This document shows, one piece after another, positions 56,853 through 64,000 of a stretch of 64,000 nt of DNA (position 1 is its first letter; the number at the start of each line of letters is the position of its first letter). A program made the translations under genes and the position numbers. Below the pieces are notes generated by a model, which saw nothing but the letters and a program-made list of their open reading frames with translations, had not been told where the DNA came from and searched no databases. Source of the DNA: Thioalkalivibrio sp. ALJT (GTDB taxonomy: Bacteria; Pseudomonadota; Gammaproteobacteria; Ectothiorhodospirales; Ectothiorhodospiraceae); contig NZ_KB907126.1 in the NCBI RefSeq assembly GCF_000381825.1, forward strand, positions 107,065 through 171,064, read 5' to 3'.

Positions 56853-57617
56853 TCATAGACACCGGGCTCGTTCCCATATTTTTGCGGGGACTTTGCTCCA
56901 CAAGCTGAACGGGCCCGCCTTGAAACCGTTTCGCCGCAACGCGTCGCAGCACTCCCTACGCGCGCGCAGGAAGCTCCGCACGCCCTGGGAACTAATCCCG
57001 CCCGGTTCCATCTCGACCGTCACCTGGGGGACGTAGACAAACGATGCACGATGCAACAAGTACGCTCGCAGCATCATGTCGAAATCCGATGCAATCGTGT
57101 ATTCAAGCGAATACGGCCCCCATCGCAACAACGAATTACGCCGCACCAGCCAGGTCGGATGGGGTGGCATCCAGCCCTTCTTCAACGCGGCCGGCGTCCA
57201 TCGCTGCGCTCCGTAGATGCGCGAAACCCGAGCGCCATCCTCCAGCCCGCGGTAGACGAGATCGGAAAAAGCGGTGTCGGCACCCGCTTGTTCAATCGCC
57301 TGCACCAGCGTACGCAGGGCATCCGGCGCGGCAAAACGGTCGCCTGCATTCAGGTGCATCAACAACGGGCCTCGCGCCAGCGAGACCCCCTTGTTCATCG
57401 CGTCGTAGATCCCCCGGTCAGGCTCCGATACCAGATGGGTGATCTGGCCCTGGGCTTGCTGGAGCACATCCAGGGTGCCGTCCTCCGATGCCCCGTCGAT
57501 GACAATGTGTTCAATCGCGGGGTAATCCTGCTGGCGCAGGGATTCGAGCGTGACGCACATGCCCTGGGCATGGTTTCGCACCACCGTCACGATGGAAACA
57601 AGGGGATCAGCGCTCAT
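56853..57617 (-). CDS. Family 2 glycosyltransferase
   Basis: 254 residues, GT-A fold. LVSIVTVVRNHAQGMCVTLE is the nucleotide-binding start, EHIVIDGASEDGT holds the first Asp of the sugar-nucleotide site, and DRGIYDAMNKGVSLARGPLL with LMHLNAGDRF holds the second region. It resembles WcaA/WcaE-type transferases of polysaccharide loci. Its ATG overlaps the preceding stop as ATGA. Last gene of the four-gene glycan operon. Donor and acceptor cannot be read from sequence. Confidence 0.88.
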   Translation of the reverse strand: MSADPLVSIVTVVRNHAQGMCVTLESLRQQDYPAIEHIVIDGASEDGTLDVLQQAQGQITHLVSEPDRGIYDAMNKGVSLARGPLLMHLNAGDRFAAPDALRTLVQAIEQAGADTAFSDLVYRGLEDGARVSRIYGAQRWTPAALKKGWMPPHPTWLVRRNSLLRWGPYSLEYTIASDFDMMLRAYLLHRASFVYVPQVTVEMEPGGISSQGVRSFLRARRECCDALRRNGFKAGPFSLWSKVPAKIWERARCL

Positions 57618-58837
57618 TTACGGGAATGCCATCGCCACCGAAAGACTCGGCCGGTGATCGCCCTGACGACCACATTCAGCCCCCACACAAGCACAAGATC
57701 CGCCCGTGGCTCGCCCACGGCCTGACGAAACAGGCGCGCCTGCAACCGGCGATACTCCCACCAGCCGACAGGGCGTCGCCGCCGCCCCCGCATAATCTCA
57801 CCTGTTGCACCGGACTCACGCAGCACATTCAACTCCACGGGCCTTACATCCAGCGGCCATCGCTGTTCCACATCATCCAGAGCGAGTTGTGACAGCACCG
57901 GACCCTGCACACGCCCCTCCGCAGATTTGCTTCCCTGTAAATCAATCGTCACCTCCTCCGGCCACGCGCCCCCTGTCATGGCGTGCAGCGACCGGGGCTC
58001 CATCTGCCCCCAGATGTCGTATCGCAGAGCCTCTCGACATGCGCTATGCATCCGGTCTTCGCTTTCAGCCCCCATCAGCGTGAGCGGCACATCAAAGCGG
58101 CGAGATGCCATGCGCACATGCGTCCCAGCATCTCCGTGGTTCGACGAGCGGGAACGGTACGGGTACAGCACATACCGCCCGGAATCGACCAGATAGGCCG
58201 CAAAAAGGCGTTTCCAGGAGCTGGCAGGCCAGTCGCGCATGACCGCCGGCAATTCCCCCGCCGCTCCCGCAACGTTCGATCCGTCCTCAAGCCAGGCGCG
58301 AAACGCCCGCCACTGGGCGGCTGTCCAGGCCTGCCCCCAGGAACACGGTACCTGCATCAGAAAGGCCGGAAACCCCGTATCCACCGGCTCGAACGGGAGC
58401 CCGTTCACCTCATTGATGTGCGGCGCATACAAAGCCACCTGAGCGATATCGGATACGGCACCCGACACCCGGAGCGCCTGCAGCGCATACCGCATGAAGC
58501 CGCGGGCCACCACCAGGTCATCCTCGAGCATGACCACCGCCCCGAAATCCTGGCTCAGATCACCGCAAGCCAGCACATGCTCGCGCAAACCCAGCCGATT
58601 GCTCTGAATCCTCACATCCTTCGGGCCAGAACGCCATACAAAGGCACGGGCTCGCTCGATCACCCCCGGGCTTCCGCCACCATCAATGCTGATCACCAGC
58701 GGGGTACCCTCGGGACAGTCCGTATCGGCCAGAGACCGCAGCAGCCGGTCCAGACTGCGCACCCGTCGATGGGCCAGCACCACAATGGCCGGATTCAGTG
58801 CCGCTTCCCTCCCCGCGGTGGGCTCGTTCTCGTTCAC
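57614..58837 (-). CDS. Glycosyltransferase-like protein (GT-A fold)
   Basis: 407 residues. NPAIVVLAHRRVRSLDRLLR and GTPLVISIDGGGSPG give a GT-A nucleotide-binding start, and FGAVVMLEDDLVVARGFMRY provides the metal-binding acidic motif EDD, as in GNT-I/POMGnT-type transferases. VPCSWGQAWTAAQWRAF is likewise typical of that group. The C-terminal third (from about 320) is not recognised. GTG 58837 lies in a GTGA overlap with the upstream gene's stop, which decides the start over a longer open frame. Part of the flippase/glycosyltransferase operon. Confidence 0.78.
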   Translation of the reverse strand: MNENEPTAGREAALNPAIVVLAHRRVRSLDRLLRSLADTDCPEGTPLVISIDGGGSPGVIERARAFVWRSGPKDVRIQSNRLGLREHVLACGDLSQDFGAVVMLEDDLVVARGFMRYALQALRVSGAVSDIAQVALYAPHINEVNGLPFEPVDTGFPAFLMQVPCSWGQAWTAAQWRAFRAWLEDGSNVAGAAGELPAVMRDWPASSWKRLFAAYLVDSGRYVLYPYRSRSSNHGDAGTHVRMASRRFDVPLTLMGAESEDRMHSACREALRYDIWGQMEPRSLHAMTGGAWPEEVTIDLQGSKSAEGRVQGPVLSQLALDDVEQRWPLDVRPVELNVLRESGATGEIMRGRRRRPVGWWEYRRLQARLFRQAVGEPRADLVLVWGLNVVVRAITGRVFRWRWHSRK

Positions 58838-59586
58838 AAACGTTTTCCCCTGGCAAACGCCCGATGCGCCAGCGCGGCCACCATGCCGGACGCCCCGAAG
58901 TAGCGCCACACTGCACGGTACTTGTCCAGCCTTTTGCGCAGGGAAACACGGCCCGACATGCCGCCCCCCTCAAAACAGGCGACCGGAAAGTCAACCGCCT
59001 CGAACCGCACACCCTGGTGAAACAGTCGTGCCACCAGCTCGTAATCCGCGTACACCGGGAAGCGCTCATCGTAGGAGAGCTGCTTTTGCAGCAGGCGACG
59101 ATTGAACACCATCGACTGATGGCACCCGAAGATCACTCCGCGTCTGAGCGCTCCTGCGACATCCTGTGGACGATAGAGCCTGTCCTTGATGCGGACGGCC
59201 CCATAGACCACGCCAGCCTGCCCGCGCGCCCGGAGCTGCAAGCGTTCGAGCACATCCGGCGCCGCAAAGGTATCCCCCGCATTCATGAAGACCACCCAGT
59301 CCCCGTTCACGGCGGCGAGGCCCCGGTTCATGCCGTCGAAAGGCCCGTCATCGGGCTGAGACGACCACTGCGTCTCGGGAAACGCCTTCAGAACATCCAG
59401 CGTGGCATCCGTCGAACCGCCATCCACAACGACAGATTCCAGCCGCACCCCCTCCTGTGACCAGACCGACGCCAGGGTCCGCTGCAAACCGTCTGCGTGG
59501 TTGCGCACCACCGAAATAACGGACACGAGCGGCCGATCACTGCCGGCATCGTGGGCGCCCGATCCCTCTGCCGCCCCCATCCTCAC
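58834..59586 (-). CDS. Family 2 glycosyltransferase
   Basis: 250 residues, GT-A fold. LVSVISVVRNHADGLQRTLA, LESVVVDGGSTDATLDVLKA and VVFMNAGDTFAAPDVLER are the GT2 signatures, and FGCHQSMVFNRRLL is the acceptor-side His-Gln region of WcaA-like enzymes. It is similar in layout to the enzyme at 56853-57617, probably a paralogue. GTG 59586 overlaps the ABC transporter stop as GTGA; ATG 59580 is the alternative. Confidence 0.88.
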   Translation of the reverse strand: MRMGAAEGSGAHDAGSDRPLVSVISVVRNHADGLQRTLASVWSQEGVRLESVVVDGGSTDATLDVLKAFPETQWSSQPDDGPFDGMNRGLAAVNGDWVVFMNAGDTFAAPDVLERLQLRARGQAGVVYGAVRIKDRLYRPQDVAGALRRGVIFGCHQSMVFNRRLLQKQLSYDERFPVYADYELVARLFHQGVRFEAVDFPVACFEGGGMSGRVSLRKRLDKYRAVWRYFGASGMVAALAHRAFARGKRL

Positions 59587-61397
59587 CCACCCTGCCGGAC
59601 AAGTGCCGCGAATCGGGGCTCACGTTCCTCCAACTCGGCGAAACTGCCCTCGGCCACCACGGCGCCCTGATCCAGCAACAGGATGCGGTCGCACTCGCGC
59701 ACCGTACTCAGGCGATGTGCCACCATCAGCACCGTCTTCGGCCCGGCCAGTGCATAAATGGATTCCATCACCGCCGCTTCGGTCACCGTATCCAGCGCAC
59801 TGGTCGCCTCATCAAAAATCAGGATGGGCGGATCGTGATACAGGGCCCGGGCAATCCCCAGGCGCTGGCGCTGGCCGCCGGAAAGCCGCACACCACGCTC
59901 ACCCACGCGGCTATCGAACCCCTGTGGCAACTCGTTGCGAACAAACCCCTCGATCTGAGCCATGCGGGCGGCCTTCACCACCCGCTCCATGTCGATCCGA
60001 TCCGGCTCCACACCAAACGCAATGTTTTCCGCAACAGACCCATCGGACAGGAAGATCTCCTGCGGCACATAACCAATGGCCGCCTGCCAGTCGCGCAGCG
60101 TCTGTTCGGAGGAATAGACTGAAACGCCATCCACCCGAATCGCACCCGCCTGTGGCCGCAACAAACCCAGGATCACGTCCACCAGCGTGGTCTTGCCGGC
60201 CCCGCTTCCCCCGACAATGCCGATCGACTCCCCGGTATGGAGGATCGCGTTGACTCCTTCCAGGGCAGCCCGACTGGTCCCCGGATAACGGTACGTCAGT
60301 CCCTGCATCTCGATGACCGCCTGCGGACGCAACGGCGTCTGCGAACGCTGAATGATCTCGGCACCTGAGCTGCGCAGGACCAGATCATCGTGCAGTGCGT
60401 CAATCAGCGCAGAACTGAACCGTAACTGCGAAAACCCGGCGTAGACCCGCTGCGCCGCCGGCAGGATGCGATACCCCGCAAACGCATACAGTCCGAGAAT
60501 CGGCAGGAGTTCGTTCACCGGCCGCGCCGACGCGCCCCCATGCAGGACCATCAATGCCAGGGTGAGCGCAATCACCCCGCCAAAAGCGATGGCCTCGACG
60601 GCGAACTTCGGGATCTCGCCCAGGGTGTTCAGGAACGCCTGATGACTCGATTGTCGCATCGACGGACCCCGAAAACGCTTCAGGTACGCCTCTTCATACC
60701 CCAGCAGCTTGATCTCCTTGATCCCCGCCAACGCCTCGGCGGCCGCGACGAAACGCTCTCCGTTGGCCCTGGCACGATCCTGCCCCGCGTGCTGAAGCGC
60801 GCGGCGGGCGAAAACATAGATCAGGGCATACAAACCACCCATCAGCCCCACCACCACCACTGCCAGCAGCGGATCCACCACCACCAGCAGCACGACCATC
60901 GCCAGCACAACCATCCCGTATGCCACGATCTGCATACCGGGCCGGAACACATAGTGGGCAATCTGATCCACCTCGGAGAGGATCGTCTTTGACAGGTCCC
61001 CCGAGTGACGGTCCAGAAAGAACGGATAAGGCTGGCGCAGATAGGTATCCAGCAAACGCTCGCTCATCGCATGCCGGCGCATCTCCACAAACCGATTCAT
61101 CGCATACACGGTCAACGAACGAAAAAGCGTGGACACCAGCACCAGCGCAAACGCACCCCCCCCCAGAAACAGCAAAAAGGCATCGACCGACACAAAGCCC
61201 ATGCCGTCGAACACAGCCCGCAGCAAGGGCTGCGTATGCACCAGATCGGGATCACCCAGAACCGCGAGAAACGGGAGGATGGAAGCAACCCCCAGCGTCT
61301 CCAGCGCGGCCATGCCGACCACCATGATCAGCACCAGGGCGCCCCGGCGTCGTTCGCGCGCACTGAAGAGCTCCAGGGTCTTGCGAAAAGTCGACAT
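59583..61397 (-). CDS. ABC transporter, PglK/MsbA-type flippase
   Basis: 604 residues. Six membrane helices in residues 1-320 are fused to an ATPase domain: Walker A GIVGGSGAGKTTLVDVILGL, signature RLSGGQRQRLGIARAL, Walker B PPILIFDEATSALD and switch VLMVAHRLSTVRECD. The membrane domain (ETLGVASILPFLAVLGDP and YRILPAAQRVYAGFSQL) resembles PglK, which flips lipid-linked oligosaccharides. There is no C39 peptidase domain, so a peptide-exporter role is less likely. Start ATG 61397, or GTG 61403. It heads the glycosyltransferase operon and diverges from the peptide genes at 61768. Confidence 0.9.
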   Translation of the reverse strand: MSTFRKTLELFSARERRRGALVLIMVVGMAALETLGVASILPFLAVLGDPDLVHTQPLLRAVFDGMGFVSVDAFLLFLGGGAFALVLVSTLFRSLTVYAMNRFVEMRRHAMSERLLDTYLRQPYPFFLDRHSGDLSKTILSEVDQIAHYVFRPGMQIVAYGMVVLAMVVLLVVVDPLLAVVVVGLMGGLYALIYVFARRALQHAGQDRARANGERFVAAAEALAGIKEIKLLGYEEAYLKRFRGPSMRQSSHQAFLNTLGEIPKFAVEAIAFGGVIALTLALMVLHGGASARPVNELLPILGLYAFAGYRILPAAQRVYAGFSQLRFSSALIDALHDDLVLRSSGAEIIQRSQTPLRPQAVIEMQGLTYRYPGTSRAALEGVNAILHTGESIGIVGGSGAGKTTLVDVILGLLRPQAGAIRVDGVSVYSSEQTLRDWQAAIGYVPQEIFLSDGSVAENIAFGVEPDRIDMERVVKAARMAQIEGFVRNELPQGFDSRVGERGVRLSGGQRQRLGIARALYHDPPILIFDEATSALDTVTEAAVMESIYALAGPKTVLMVAHRLSTVRECDRILLLDQGAVVAEGSFAELEEREPRFAALVRQGG

Positions 61398-61403
61398 CCA
61401 CAC

Positions 61404-61767
61404 ATCTCGTTACCGTCCAGGCCACATGGTATCGACGCACACCCGGCAAGTCTCCAGCGGCACCAGGACGGGGCACTCGGGTTCAGGCGTCCCCCCCGCC
61501 GCACCCCCGATCGCCACGACGAACCAACGCGCCGGATCGCTCCGGCCCGGCTTGCCATGGCCGTGATCGGCCGGTGCCGGACAGCAGCGGGTCCGTACCC
61601 CTCTCACCCATCACACAAACGCACACCCGCGGTGATATCGCCGTCCCCTGCCGCGCCACCTGTGCCCCCCTCCCGCCACAAACCCAACGCTTGCATCCCG
61701 CCGGTCACATGTTCTAGAAAAGGTATGGCACATACTGCCGATCGATAACCCCAAGGAGACGCGAACC
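61404..61767. promoter_or_regulatory. Divergent promoter region of flippase and peptide genes
   Basis: About 364 bp without a gene. Near the peptide genes it becomes AT-richer and contains the palindrome TTCTAGAA (61712-61719) and the dyad GTATG-GCA-CATAC (61723-61735). These are followed by an AAGGAGA ribosome binding site 8 nt before ATG 61768. They are candidates for operator and promoter of the peptide operon; no regulator gene is in view. Confidence 0.5.
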
Positions 61768-61938
61768 ATGAAAACGACTGAGAAAAAAGCTTCCGTCCAG
61801 CTCGACACCCGCCAATTGCTGGGATTCCGCCTCGCCCACACCGATGCAACCACCTCCGCCGTTGGCGCCAAAATCGGCGAAGGCAAACCCTTAACCGTCT
61901 CTGCGCCGGGCGCCAAGATCGGCGAATTGAAAGATTGA
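61768..61938 (+). CDS. Putative RiPP precursor peptide 1 with two GAKIG motifs
   Basis: 56 residues. Leader-like part: MKTTEKKASVQLDTRQLLGF then RLAHTDA. Core-like part: SAVGAKIGEGKP and SAPGAKIGELKD, two copies of S-A-(V/P)-G-A-K-I-G. A strongly conserved N-terminal half and short repeated C-terminal units are the usual build of ribosomally made, post-translationally modified peptides. AAGGAGA ribosome binding site. The next gene is a close paralogue. I do not recognise a named precursor family. Modification enzymes appear to follow at 62534 and 63514. Confidence 0.78.
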   Translation: MKTTEKKASVQLDTRQLLGFRLAHTDATTSAVGAKIGEGKPLTVSAPGAKIGELKD

Positions 61939-61940
61939 AC

Positions 61941-61955
61941 GCCTTCTCCGAAGGC
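61941..61955 (+). promoter_or_regulatory. Hairpin between the two peptide genes
   Basis: GCCTTC-TCC-GAAGGC, directly after the first peptide stop and before the ribosome binding site of the second. No T-run follows. It may stabilise the upstream mRNA or adjust the ratio of the two peptides. Confidence 0.4.
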
Positions 61956-61990
61956 AGACTGCCATCAGACCCCGCAGGAGACTTGATCCC

Positions 61991-62164
61991 ATGAAAACGA
62001 CCGATAGAAATGCCACCGTCCAACTGGATACCCGCCAATTGCTGGGATTCCGCCTCGCCCACGCGAATGCCCCCACCTCCGCCGTTGGCGCCAAAATCGG
62101 CGATGTCAAACCGGAAGTAATAACCTCCGCTCCGGGGGCGAAGATCGGTATGGGAAAAACATAG
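61991..62164 (+). CDS. Putative RiPP precursor peptide 2 with two GAKIG motifs
   Basis: 57 residues, paralogue of the preceding peptide. VQLDTRQLLGFRLAH is identical in both. The C-terminal part reads SAVGAKIGDVKP and SAPGAKIGMGKT. Differences concentrate in the start (TDRNAT versus TEKKAS), in the linkers and at the extreme C-terminus, so the GAKIG units and the leader appear to be under selection. Ribosome binding site AGGAGA about 9 nt upstream of ATG 61991. Tandem duplication of whole precursor genes is common in RiPP loci. Confidence 0.78.
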   Translation: MKTTDRNATVQLDTRQLLGFRLAHANAPTSAVGAKIGDVKPEVITSAPGAKIGMGKT

Positions 62165-62172
62165 GAACCCGT

Positions 62173-62278
62173 CGGGTTTGAACGATCGTCGCAAGCGTGG
62201 ATCAGGAGACCCAGGCATTTTCCTCAGCCTCCGAAGGCAATTGGTCGTGTTGATGCACCAGGAGGGAGAGCGGAAACA
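62173..62278 (+). repeat. Intergenic repeat with 25-bp core, copy 3
   Basis: The core at 62173-62197 begins CGGGTTTGAACGATCGTCGC, matching 39999-40023 and the reversed 41674-41698. GGGAGAGCGGAAAC near 62265-62278 parallels the second arm of copy 1, but the hairpin is weaker here. It begins nine bases after the second peptide stop. Confidence 0.6.
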
Positions 62279-62415
62279 GAACTGCTCTTCTGATCTCGCG
62301 CGGGCGACTCACCCCCGATCCGACACTCTCCTGGATCCGTATTTTCCTTGCTGGAACCGTGCAGCAATTAATACGATCCAGGCGGACTAAAAGGGCTGAG
62401 CCATTCTCAACCGAC

Positions 62416-62497
62416 GCCCCGGGACGTCACGCCCCCCTCTGTTAAATCGGGGGCAGCCGTTCTTCCCGGGGCCTGCCTCACGTCCCGTTAGCGGGGC
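62416..62497 (+). promoter_or_regulatory. Structured RNA leader upstream of HExxH gene
   Basis: Nested pairings: GCCCC (62416-62420) with GGGGC (62493-62497), and GGGACGT (62421-62427) with ACGTCCC (62480-62486). Inside, GCCCCC (62431-62436) pairs with GGGGGC (62449-62454). An alternative pairing, GGCAG (62452-62456) with CTGCC (62473-62477), excludes the inner stem. Two mutually exclusive inner stems in a closed outer stem suggest attenuation or a protein- or ligand-binding leader. Family not recognised. Confidence 0.5.
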
Positions 62498-62533
62498 CAA
62501 TACCAGCCAAAGCGACCTCCCACGGAGCCACCT

Positions 62534-63517
62534 GTGTCGATTCCTACCGACTTCGCACCCGATCGCCAACGCGCCCGGGCACTGGATCAGCGCATGCACG
62601 CCGAACTTGGCCGCAGCGTGCGGCTGGTGGTGGATGCATGCCGGGATCGATTAGCACTGGATTACGACGCGCTCGACACGCTCTGCTCCACGCTCGAGGC
62701 AGGCGTCACTCATCCGCCAACCACATTTGCGTTCTACTACGACGCGGTGACGGCCTTGCTGGAGGAAGACGAAGCTCGCGCGGCCCGTTTCCTCGATGCG
62801 CTCGCGCAACAACAGCCGCTTTCCTCCACCCAGGAAGTTGGAGCCCTGGACAACGGTTCGCGGGGGCAATGTTACCGCGAGCGCATGACTGCCGAGATGA
62901 GTACCGGCCTGAGTCTGCACACCCCGGACCCGGACACCACCCGCAACTTTATCGACTGTTACCGGGCCGCGATGGACCTCCTCCGGCAGACCGCACGCCC
63001 ACTGGCCGACGAAATCCAGTCGATCGTGCATGACGTGATCGCCGTAACGGGCGGCCCGGATGATGAAGGCGAATTCCACGGAGGCTCCCATTACCAGCTC
63101 TGGGGCGCGCTATTTCTGAATGCCCAGCTGCACAACACCCGCATCGCAATGGCCGAAGTGCTGGCGCATGAAAGCGCCCACAGTCTGTTGTTCGGCTTCT
63201 GTACCCATGAGCCGCTCACGCTCAACGAAGACTCGGAACACTACCCCTCCCCCTTGCGCTCCGATCTGCGCCCCATGGATGGTATCTATCACGCGACCTT
63301 CGTTTCGGCTCGCATGCACTGGGCCATGAACCAGCTCCTGCAGTCACCGCTTATATCCGAACAGGAACGTGATCAGGCACAGGCCGCCGTGGCGCGAGAC
63401 CGGGAGCATTTCGAGGCCGGATATTTCGTGGTGGCCCAGCATGGAAAACTCACGACACTGGGCGACAGCTTGATGAAGAATGCCCGGCACTACATGGACG
63501 TTGTTGCCCATCCATGA
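62534..63517 (+). CDS. HExxH peptide beta-hydroxylase-like protein
   Basis: 327 residues. VLAHESAHSLLFGF carries HExxH, and about 30 residues later SPLRSDLRPMDGIYHATFVS matches the second conserved block (ysPlRxDpRPxxGxxHgxF) of the HExxH-containing peptide-modification family (TIGR04267-like). Some members were shown to be 2-oxoglutarate-dependent peptide beta-hydroxylases, not proteases. The N-terminal half is helical without recognised domain. GTG 62534 follows a GGAG site. Its stop overlaps the next start as ATGA. Proposed substrate: the two GAKIG peptides upstream (inference). Confidence 0.8.
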   Translation: MSIPTDFAPDRQRARALDQRMHAELGRSVRLVVDACRDRLALDYDALDTLCSTLEAGVTHPPTTFAFYYDAVTALLEEDEARAARFLDALAQQQPLSSTQEVGALDNGSRGQCYRERMTAEMSTGLSLHTPDPDTTRNFIDCYRAAMDLLRQTARPLADEIQSIVHDVIAVTGGPDDEGEFHGGSHYQLWGALFLNAQLHNTRIAMAEVLAHESAHSLLFGFCTHEPLTLNEDSEHYPSPLRSDLRPMDGIYHATFVSARMHWAMNQLLQSPLISEQERDQAQAAVARDREHFEAGYFVVAQHGKLTTLGDSLMKNARHYMDVVAHP

Positions 63518-64000
63518 TCATTCTGTTTACCACGCGCACGCACAACACCACGCATCGCATCCTTGAAAAACATCCCGGCATTGATTTTCGCTGGATGTCG
63601 TACGAACGGCTTCTGCGCACCCGGAGCCTGCGACGCGCCACCTATATCTTTTCCGACCTTGACCGGTTGCATTTCTGGGATCTGGAGTGCATCGCCAACA
63701 TCTACCGGGTCCTGCGTGAACAAGGTGCACGGGTACTCAACGACCCCGCCCTGCACCGTTCCCGCTATCAGTTCCTCCGGCACCTGAATGCAAAAGGCAT
63801 CAACGACTTCAACGTCTGGATGGCCGACGAAACCCCGCCGCTCAGTGCCTATCCGGTATTCCTGCGCACCGACTCCGCCCATCGCGGACCGCTCACCGAA
63901 CTGATACAGGACCCGGACGCCCTCGAAACCGCCATCGAACAGCAGCTGCGTCGGGGTACACCAAGACGCGAACTGTTGATCGTCCAGTACGCCGCCGAAC
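63514..64000 (+). CDS. ATP-grasp-like protein, partial (runs off window)
   Basis: The first 162 residues of a gene continuing beyond the window, coupled to the HExxH gene by an ATGA overlap. MIILFTTRTHNTTHRILEKH begins a Rossmann-like pre-ATP-grasp region. GARVLNDPALHRSRYQFLRH followed by LNAKGINDF resembles the RimK/glutathione-synthase segment before the ATP-binding lobe. YPVFLRTDSAHRGPLTELIQ and ELLIVQYAAE fit the start of the ATP-grasp core. ATP-grasp ligases make amide or ester links in several RiPP classes. Assignment is provisional because the catalytic end is missing. Confidence 0.65.
   Translation, partial: MIILFTTRTHNTTHRILEKHPGIDFRWMSYERLLRTRSLRRATYIFSDLDRLHFWDLECIANIYRVLREQGARVLNDPALHRSRYQFLRHLNAKGINDFNVWMADETPPLSAYPVFLRTDSAHRGPLTELIQDPDALETAIEQQLRRGTPRRELLIVQYAAE

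Follow-up and report, generated by a model that had tools for sequence, protein, structure and literature searches.

A candidate RiPP-type cassette in Thioalkalivibrio sp. ALJT: G-x-K-x-G repeat peptides with an αKG-HExxH-type protein and an ATP-grasp-type ligase

What could two small tandem peptide genes make together with the enzyme genes that follow them? This question is raised by the right-hand end of the window, a stretch of 64,000 nucleotides from contig NZ_KB907126.1 of Thioalkalivibrio sp. ALJT. An earlier note had described two short genes with a conserved N-terminal half and duplicated GAKIG units, an HExxH protein with an SPLRSDLRP block and a coupled ATP-grasp-like gene cut by the window edge, and had proposed a new pathway for a ribosomally synthesized and post-translationally modified peptide (RiPP). 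Our analysis supports this interpretation, with all three parts found as described and the cassette conserved in relatives. The genes probably form a self-contained RiPP-type cassette of a new family, in which the HExxH protein would hydroxylate the repeats and the ligase would form an amide on the same peptide.

Peptides and enzymes of the cassette

Both peptide genes lie on the plus strand, at 61768..61938 (56 residues) and 61991..62164 (57 residues), each behind an AGGAG-like stretch. They are 52 bases apart, and a further 369 bases separate the second from the HExxH gene. The N-terminal half common to both peptides carries the leader LDTRQLLGFRL (leader profile E 5.1e-6 and 2.4e-6, respectively) and ends in VQLDTRQLLGFRLAH. 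Each peptide indeed has two GAKIG units, encoded at 61864-61878 and 61909-61923 in the first gene and at 62087-62101 and 62135-62149 in the second. Between the two genes, the first 37 codons contain 4 differences at codon position 1, 1 at position 2, and 9 at position 3, a pattern typical of coding sequence. A DNA search of the same genome for GGNGCNAARATHGGN returned six matches, the four window units and two inside long unrelated reading frames, and the reversed control pattern returned none. A chance origin of the GAKIG repeats was rejected on the basis of these matches, the codon-position differences, and the conservation in relatives. The window pair are the only peptides with the leader in this genome, which has no second TIGR04267 gene. 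A scan of 61400-62600 found no promoter and three terminator-like matches (1.4 expected), all on the minus strand. The gap between the second peptide gene and the HExxH gene (62165-62533) folds better as RNA than its shuffles (z -2.89; 0 of 100 as good) and could be a processing or attenuation element.

The HExxH gene (62534..63517, plus strand, GTG start) encodes 327 residues, with HESAH at residues 212-216 and an SPLRxDxRPxDGIYHA block. The protein matches TIGR04267 with an E value of 6.1e-38 (130.6 bits; cut-off 40), and all 39 aligned relatives retain H212, E213, H216, and H253. A structural model built from 39 relatives has a predicted local distance difference test (pLDDT) score of 96.6. 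Among the best 50 of its 378 Foldseek matches, the only ones with E below 0.001 are chains of 8s5f (ChlH; E 1.7e-10) and 22ob (SjiH). The HExxH motif and the SPxRxDxRP block align with ChlH. SjiH has Gln in place of H253, which makes this residue a candidate third metal ligand in the alignment rather than a settled one. The protein with its SPLRSDLRP block is thus borne out by profile and fold. By profile, motif, and modeled fold, this protein is a member of the αKG-HExxH peptide β-hydroxylase family with predicted hydroxylase activity. Known members β-hydroxylate Asp, His, Phe, Gln, and Pro, according to part of the text of PMC13060819, and one enzyme additionally cleaves the peptide backbone, according to part of PMC12636437. 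A single-protein HExxH scan of a collection of genome contigs gave 20 candidate stretches, none of which was confirmed.

The ligase gene overlaps the HExxH gene by 4 bases on the plus strand. The window holds the first 162 of its 323 residues (63514..64000), and the contig beyond holds the whole gene (L007:5579-6550; window-equivalent end 64485), so that the cut at the window edge was rightly called. No Pfam or NCBIfam model matches the ligase, which leaves the RimK and LysX/ArgX family models unmatched; eight further precursors and another ligase had no NCBIfam match either. A weak sequence match is to D-Ala-D-Ala ligase (E 0.0033). Its structural model (pLDDT 92.9) has an ATP-grasp fold, as the earlier description implied, and the nearest structures among the best 50 of 691 Foldseek matches are ArgX/LysX, RimK, and Ddl (D-Ala-D-Ala ligase), with a template modelling (TM) score of ~0.5. 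E250-x-N252, R236, D238, and K195 are invariant in 51 of 51 alignment rows. The fold model and the invariant ExN metal-binding motif together indicate that the modeled protein is a divergent ATP-grasp amide ligase.

Recurrence in other bacteria

Precursors across relatives share an N-terminal leader motif, LDxxKLLGF, and a core with G-x-K-x-G repeats. Core statistics refer to 49 hand-chosen precursors from 44 loci, cut to start ahead of the leader. This set omits atypical candidates in L048, L059, L073, and L085, further paralogues in L029, L034, L087, and L134, and an orphan in L159; it retains the near-copies L064/L072, L068/L070, L083/L087, and L143/L144. The pattern G.K.G occurs 108 times in the 49 precursors, against a mean of 7.1 and a maximum of 15 in 500 shuffles of each core, and G[AS]K[IV]G occurs 39 times, against 0.2 after shuffling. 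Lysine recurs four residues apart in 38-39% of cases versus 14% overall. GAKIG therefore stands as the unit of the window peptides but not of the family, in which the conserved unit is G-x-K-x-G and GAKIG is one form of it. Acidic residues are absent from 5 of the 49 cores and, by eye, have no fixed position; the C-terminal residues are variable, with no conserved C-terminal acidic residue. The short genes have the features by which RiPP precursors are recognized, namely, a conserved N-terminal part, a variable repeated core, and adjacent modifying enzymes. On the verrucomicrobial contigs L029 and L034, several precursors with a common LNWGKLLGF leader stand in tandem; in L034 the HExxH score comes from no more than a fragment at the end of the contig, and L029 has no HExxH. 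Genome G669 has an orphan precursor (L159:1312-1626) with the leader and a LGAKIGSKLGKKP core, which lies ~850 kilobases (kb) from the enzymes and adjoins a group-1 glycosyltransferase.

Five ligase queries against genome contigs yielded 99 relatives, the best 80 of which define loci L021-L100. An HExxH gene (>200 bits) is present in the same locus in 45 of the 80, and these 45 belong to Proteobacteria, one Verrucomicrobium, and one Acidobacterium. The HExxH label clusters strongly among the 91 ligases of a tree, requiring 8 changes against 29.9 in shuffles (0 of 500 as low). HExxH is present in 40 of 45 rows on the window's side of this tree, a branch that is weakly supported (94/85). Taken from the HExxH side, 42 of 58 loci have a short gene that fits the leader or the repeat pattern at a distance of up to 900 bases, which contradicts the proposition that HExxH homologues might consistently lack adjacent peptides. 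This short gene is on the HExxH strand in all 42 cases, although 39 of the 52 loci with a ligase have it in divergent orientation; the ligase count is biased upward because L021-L100 were chosen by ligase query. One of the 58 loci, L142, is a copy of L052 and was left out of a near/far comparison of the remaining 57. There, the 113 kb next to the enzymes contained 50 pattern-matching open reading frames and the more distant 522 kb contained 4, a ~58-fold higher density near the enzymes that is generous because the search pattern was partly learned from the same loci; the strand rule is unaffected.

Scans centred on HExxH, each including the window's own genome, found 6 loci in 5 of 274 genomes of the class, with the ligase alongside in 5 of the 6, and 9 loci in 9 of 398 genomes of the phylum. 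Among 47 genomes of the family, HExxH is present in four, the leader (E <0.001) in the same four, and the ligase in those four and in G688. The leader profile contains the leaders of G000, G669, and G696, in which matches arise by construction; the informative part is its absence from 43 of the 47 genomes (42 without any match and one at E 0.38). In a census covering 213 of 237 listed neighbours, no third conserved gene appeared among the 25 commonest families per set. Within the same families, no protease or transporter family exceeded 3 of 106 or 107 neighbours, and the conserved protease, exporter, or radical SAM neighbour that had been suggested did not emerge as recurrent. A role as plasmid or phage cargo was rejected on plasmid records alone (four HExxH records with <60% coverage and two ligase records). 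The cassette recurs across dozens of different bacteria, Hyphomonas and Stappia among them, and represents a candidate RiPP family of wide distribution that has a leader (LDxxKLLGF), a core rule (G-x-K-x-G), and an enzyme pair of its own.

Six HExxH loci are without the window-type ligase (L017, L145, L146, L147, L148, and L149). L017 and L145 have related (30 to 34% identical) cyanophycin-synthetase-like ATP-grasp genes beside the peptide and the HExxH gene, and the first half of the L145 protein matches cyanophycin synthetase (E 1.8e-60). In L146, AMP-binding, carrier, and thioesterase domains are combined in one protein (L146:2767-5292), the gene for which overlaps the HExxH gene; in L147, an AMP-binding protein adjoins it. 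A carboxylate-activating enzyme of another kind is therefore kept in four of the six loci (neighbours were covered in five, L017 and L145 to L148), which we take as the strongest hint that the pathway includes formation of an amide or ester. That unrelated carboxylate-activating enzymes stand in for the ligase suggests a single chemical step that the pathway requires, testable with three genes in a laboratory strain. The cyanophycin-synthetase-like gene of L017 (L017:5592-7414) lies in two pieces in different frames and may be broken or contain a sequencing error. The L146 peptide has LFSKRG repeats.

Proposed pathway and alternatives

The genes, their conservation, co-occurrence, and strand linkage, and the families and folds of the enzymes were observed directly; from these we infer the modification of the peptide by the cassette enzymes, including its sites and the attached group. 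The LDxxKLLGF leader would be the recognition part that brings the precursor to both enzymes, and the C-terminal half, with one to several G-x-K-x-G units, would be the modified core. As an Fe(II)/2-oxoglutarate hydroxylase, the HExxH protein would act at several core positions, most likely on the β-carbon of the repeated lysine, given that β-hydroxylation is the reported activity of its family. The co-translated ATP-grasp enzyme would use ATP to form an acyl phosphate and then an amide on the same peptide. We prefer acylation of the lysine ε-amines by a carboxylic acid from outside the peptide, because lysine is the repeated residue and because the AMP-binding/carrier enzyme of L146 looks suited to acid delivery. 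Alternatively, an amine could be joined to the peptide C terminus, the kind of reaction known from RimK and LysX/ArgX. The general cell machinery would then remove the leader and export the product.

Several observations weigh against such a cassette or against one of its proposed steps. No matching peptide is found in 16 of the 58 HExxH loci, some of which lie at contig ends or are masked by over-long start calls; L147, L148, and L149 have no pattern-matching peptide, and in L148 the gene next to HExxH encodes an EamA transporter. Of the nine loci in the phylum scan, four have the ligase and six the peptide. Ligase relatives without HExxH or peptide also exist, often adjoining glycosyltransferases. 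As for the amide, the C-terminal residues of the precursors are not conserved, which does not favour C-terminal ligation, and lysine acylation is not favoured by the nearest ligase folds, RimK and LysX/ArgX, which work on peptide carboxylates.

Could the ATP-grasp enzyme instead close rings within the peptide? In a graspetide-like pathway it would form lactam or lactone rings by joining lysine to Asp or Glu side chains, and the ring would be decorated by the HExxH enzyme. The fold of the ligase, the presence of at least one Asp or Glu in 44 of the 49 chosen cores, and the handling of multi-core precursors by such enzymes, described in part of PMC5934393, all agree with this. Yet five cores have neither residue, and in the others the acids have no fixed place beside a strictly repeated lysine; further, the ligase has no Pfam or NCBIfam match, and its nearest folds are ArgX/LysX, RimK, and Ddl, with no graspetide ligase among the matches listed. 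We regard this pathway as unlikely, and an ordinary graspetide was rejected, as the cores have no conserved side-chain pairs of an acid with Ser, Thr, or Lys. Equally concerned with the chemistry of the cassette is the suggestion that the HExxH protein is a protease that removes the leader from the short peptides. HExxH is a zincin motif, and the related PflC has peptidase activity without a leader according to part of PMC12636437, but by family and fold the protein belongs to the αKG-HExxH hydroxylases, the main reported activity of which is hydroxylation in the same text and in part of PMC13060819. A protease was rejected as first choice on the TIGR04267 match and the ChlH fold, and we consider it very improbable.

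The surroundings of the cassette raise another alternative. In the window it is flanked by a PglK-like ABC flippase with glycosyltransferases on one side and by a sugar transferase on the other; the former group, just upstream at 56853-61403 on the minus strand, comprises three glycosyltransferase-like genes, one of which was scanned and matches Glycos_transf_2, and the PglK-like ABC transporter. In three loci from different branches of the ligase tree (L022, L031, and L039), a Wzx-like flippase gene lies between the HExxH and ligase genes. A ligase relative is directly 3' of a flippase on a Paracoccus plasmid, and glycosyltransferases account for 5 of 10 scanned neighbours of HExxH-free ligases. 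These arrangements would fit a lysine-repeat peptide that is hydroxylated and then joined through its lysine amines to the carboxylate of a surface glycan or lipid-linked precursor, such as a sugar acid activated by the ATP-grasp ligase. If true, this would be a gene-encoded peptide-polysaccharide conjugate with the GxKxG repeats as attachment points. Of the HExxH loci, 13 of 55 contain glycan genes, and of the ligase loci without HExxH, 14 of 40 do, compared with 2 of 40 random stretches; the stretches came from 8 genomes only, the glycan query proteins came from the compared loci, and PglK matches were dropped as too unspecific. The comparison weakens once the query-supplying loci are dropped (HExxH loci, 9 of 51 versus 2 of 40, P 0.10; HExxH-free loci, 9 of 35 versus 2 of 40, P 0.02). 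Moreover, 42 of the 55 HExxH loci have no such glycan gene, and a flippase could export the free peptide instead. The link between the cassette and surface-polysaccharide genes is suggestive only, and such a conjugate seems to us quite unlikely.

Relation to known systems

Each component is known already, RiPPs as well as αKG-HExxH enzymes and ATP-grasp peptide ligases; what appears to be new is the pairing of the two enzymes with this leader and core. We found no description of an αKG-HExxH and ATP-grasp pair with an LDxxKLLGF leader and a G-x-K-x-G core in the open-access literature, in keeping with the earlier statement that no named pathway is known to have this combination, and for GAKIG the same literature held nothing relevant, judged by titles. 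The simple repeated core would suit peptide engineering.

ChlBH and SjiH are reportedly the proteins of Morishita et al. 2024. They resemble the cassette enzyme in the fold and sequence of the HExxH domain (PDB 8s5f and 22ob) but are radical SAM plus αKG-HExxH proteins, whereas the cassette HExxH protein stands alone, with no recurrent radical SAM among the 25 commonest neighbour families. The pfl/pos systems of Pseudomonas (PflC/PosC), as described in part of PMC12636437, likewise use an αKG-HExxH enzyme on a ribosomal peptide with repeated targets, several Gln residues being hydroxylated. Their partners, however, are an MNIO-nitroreductase, GNAT, and transporters, and their leader is of the nitrile hydratase type, in contrast to the ATP-grasp enzyme and LDxxKLLGF leader of the cassette; the term "ATP-grasp" is absent from PMC12636437. 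Similarly, the nitrilobacillin pes system combines an αKG-HExxH enzyme with a carboxylate-activating, ATP-using enzyme on one precursor, but there the latter is an asparagine-synthetase-like nitrile synthetase, accompanied by an MNIO (PMC13060819, from part of its text). Graspetides and microviridins also pair a short precursor with an ATP-grasp ligase; unlike theirs, the cores of the cassette have no conserved acid-hydroxyl or acid-lysine pattern, and the terms "HExxH" and "hydroxylase" are absent from the graspetide survey PMC8939145. Within the open-access literature searched, "ATP-grasp" and "HExxH" occur together in PMC13039773, PMC5512222, and PMC9262961 only; in the first of these, the HEXXH protein is a leader protease, as far as the part of that text consulted goes.

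On the ligase side, ArgX/LysX, RimK, and cyanophycin synthetase, which are ATP-grasp ligases with protein or peptide substrates, share the fold of the cassette ligase, and cyanophycin-synthetase-like ATP-grasp enzymes substitute for it in two loci. The cassette differs from these systems in that its ligase has no sequence-model match and its precursors have no conserved C-terminal acidic residue. One HExxH-free relative of the ligase (L058:7959-8969) comes directly after a RamC/LanC-type protein resembling class III lanthipeptide synthetases (L058:5328-7913), suggesting that the ATP-grasp group to which the ligase belongs may serve other RiPPs too.

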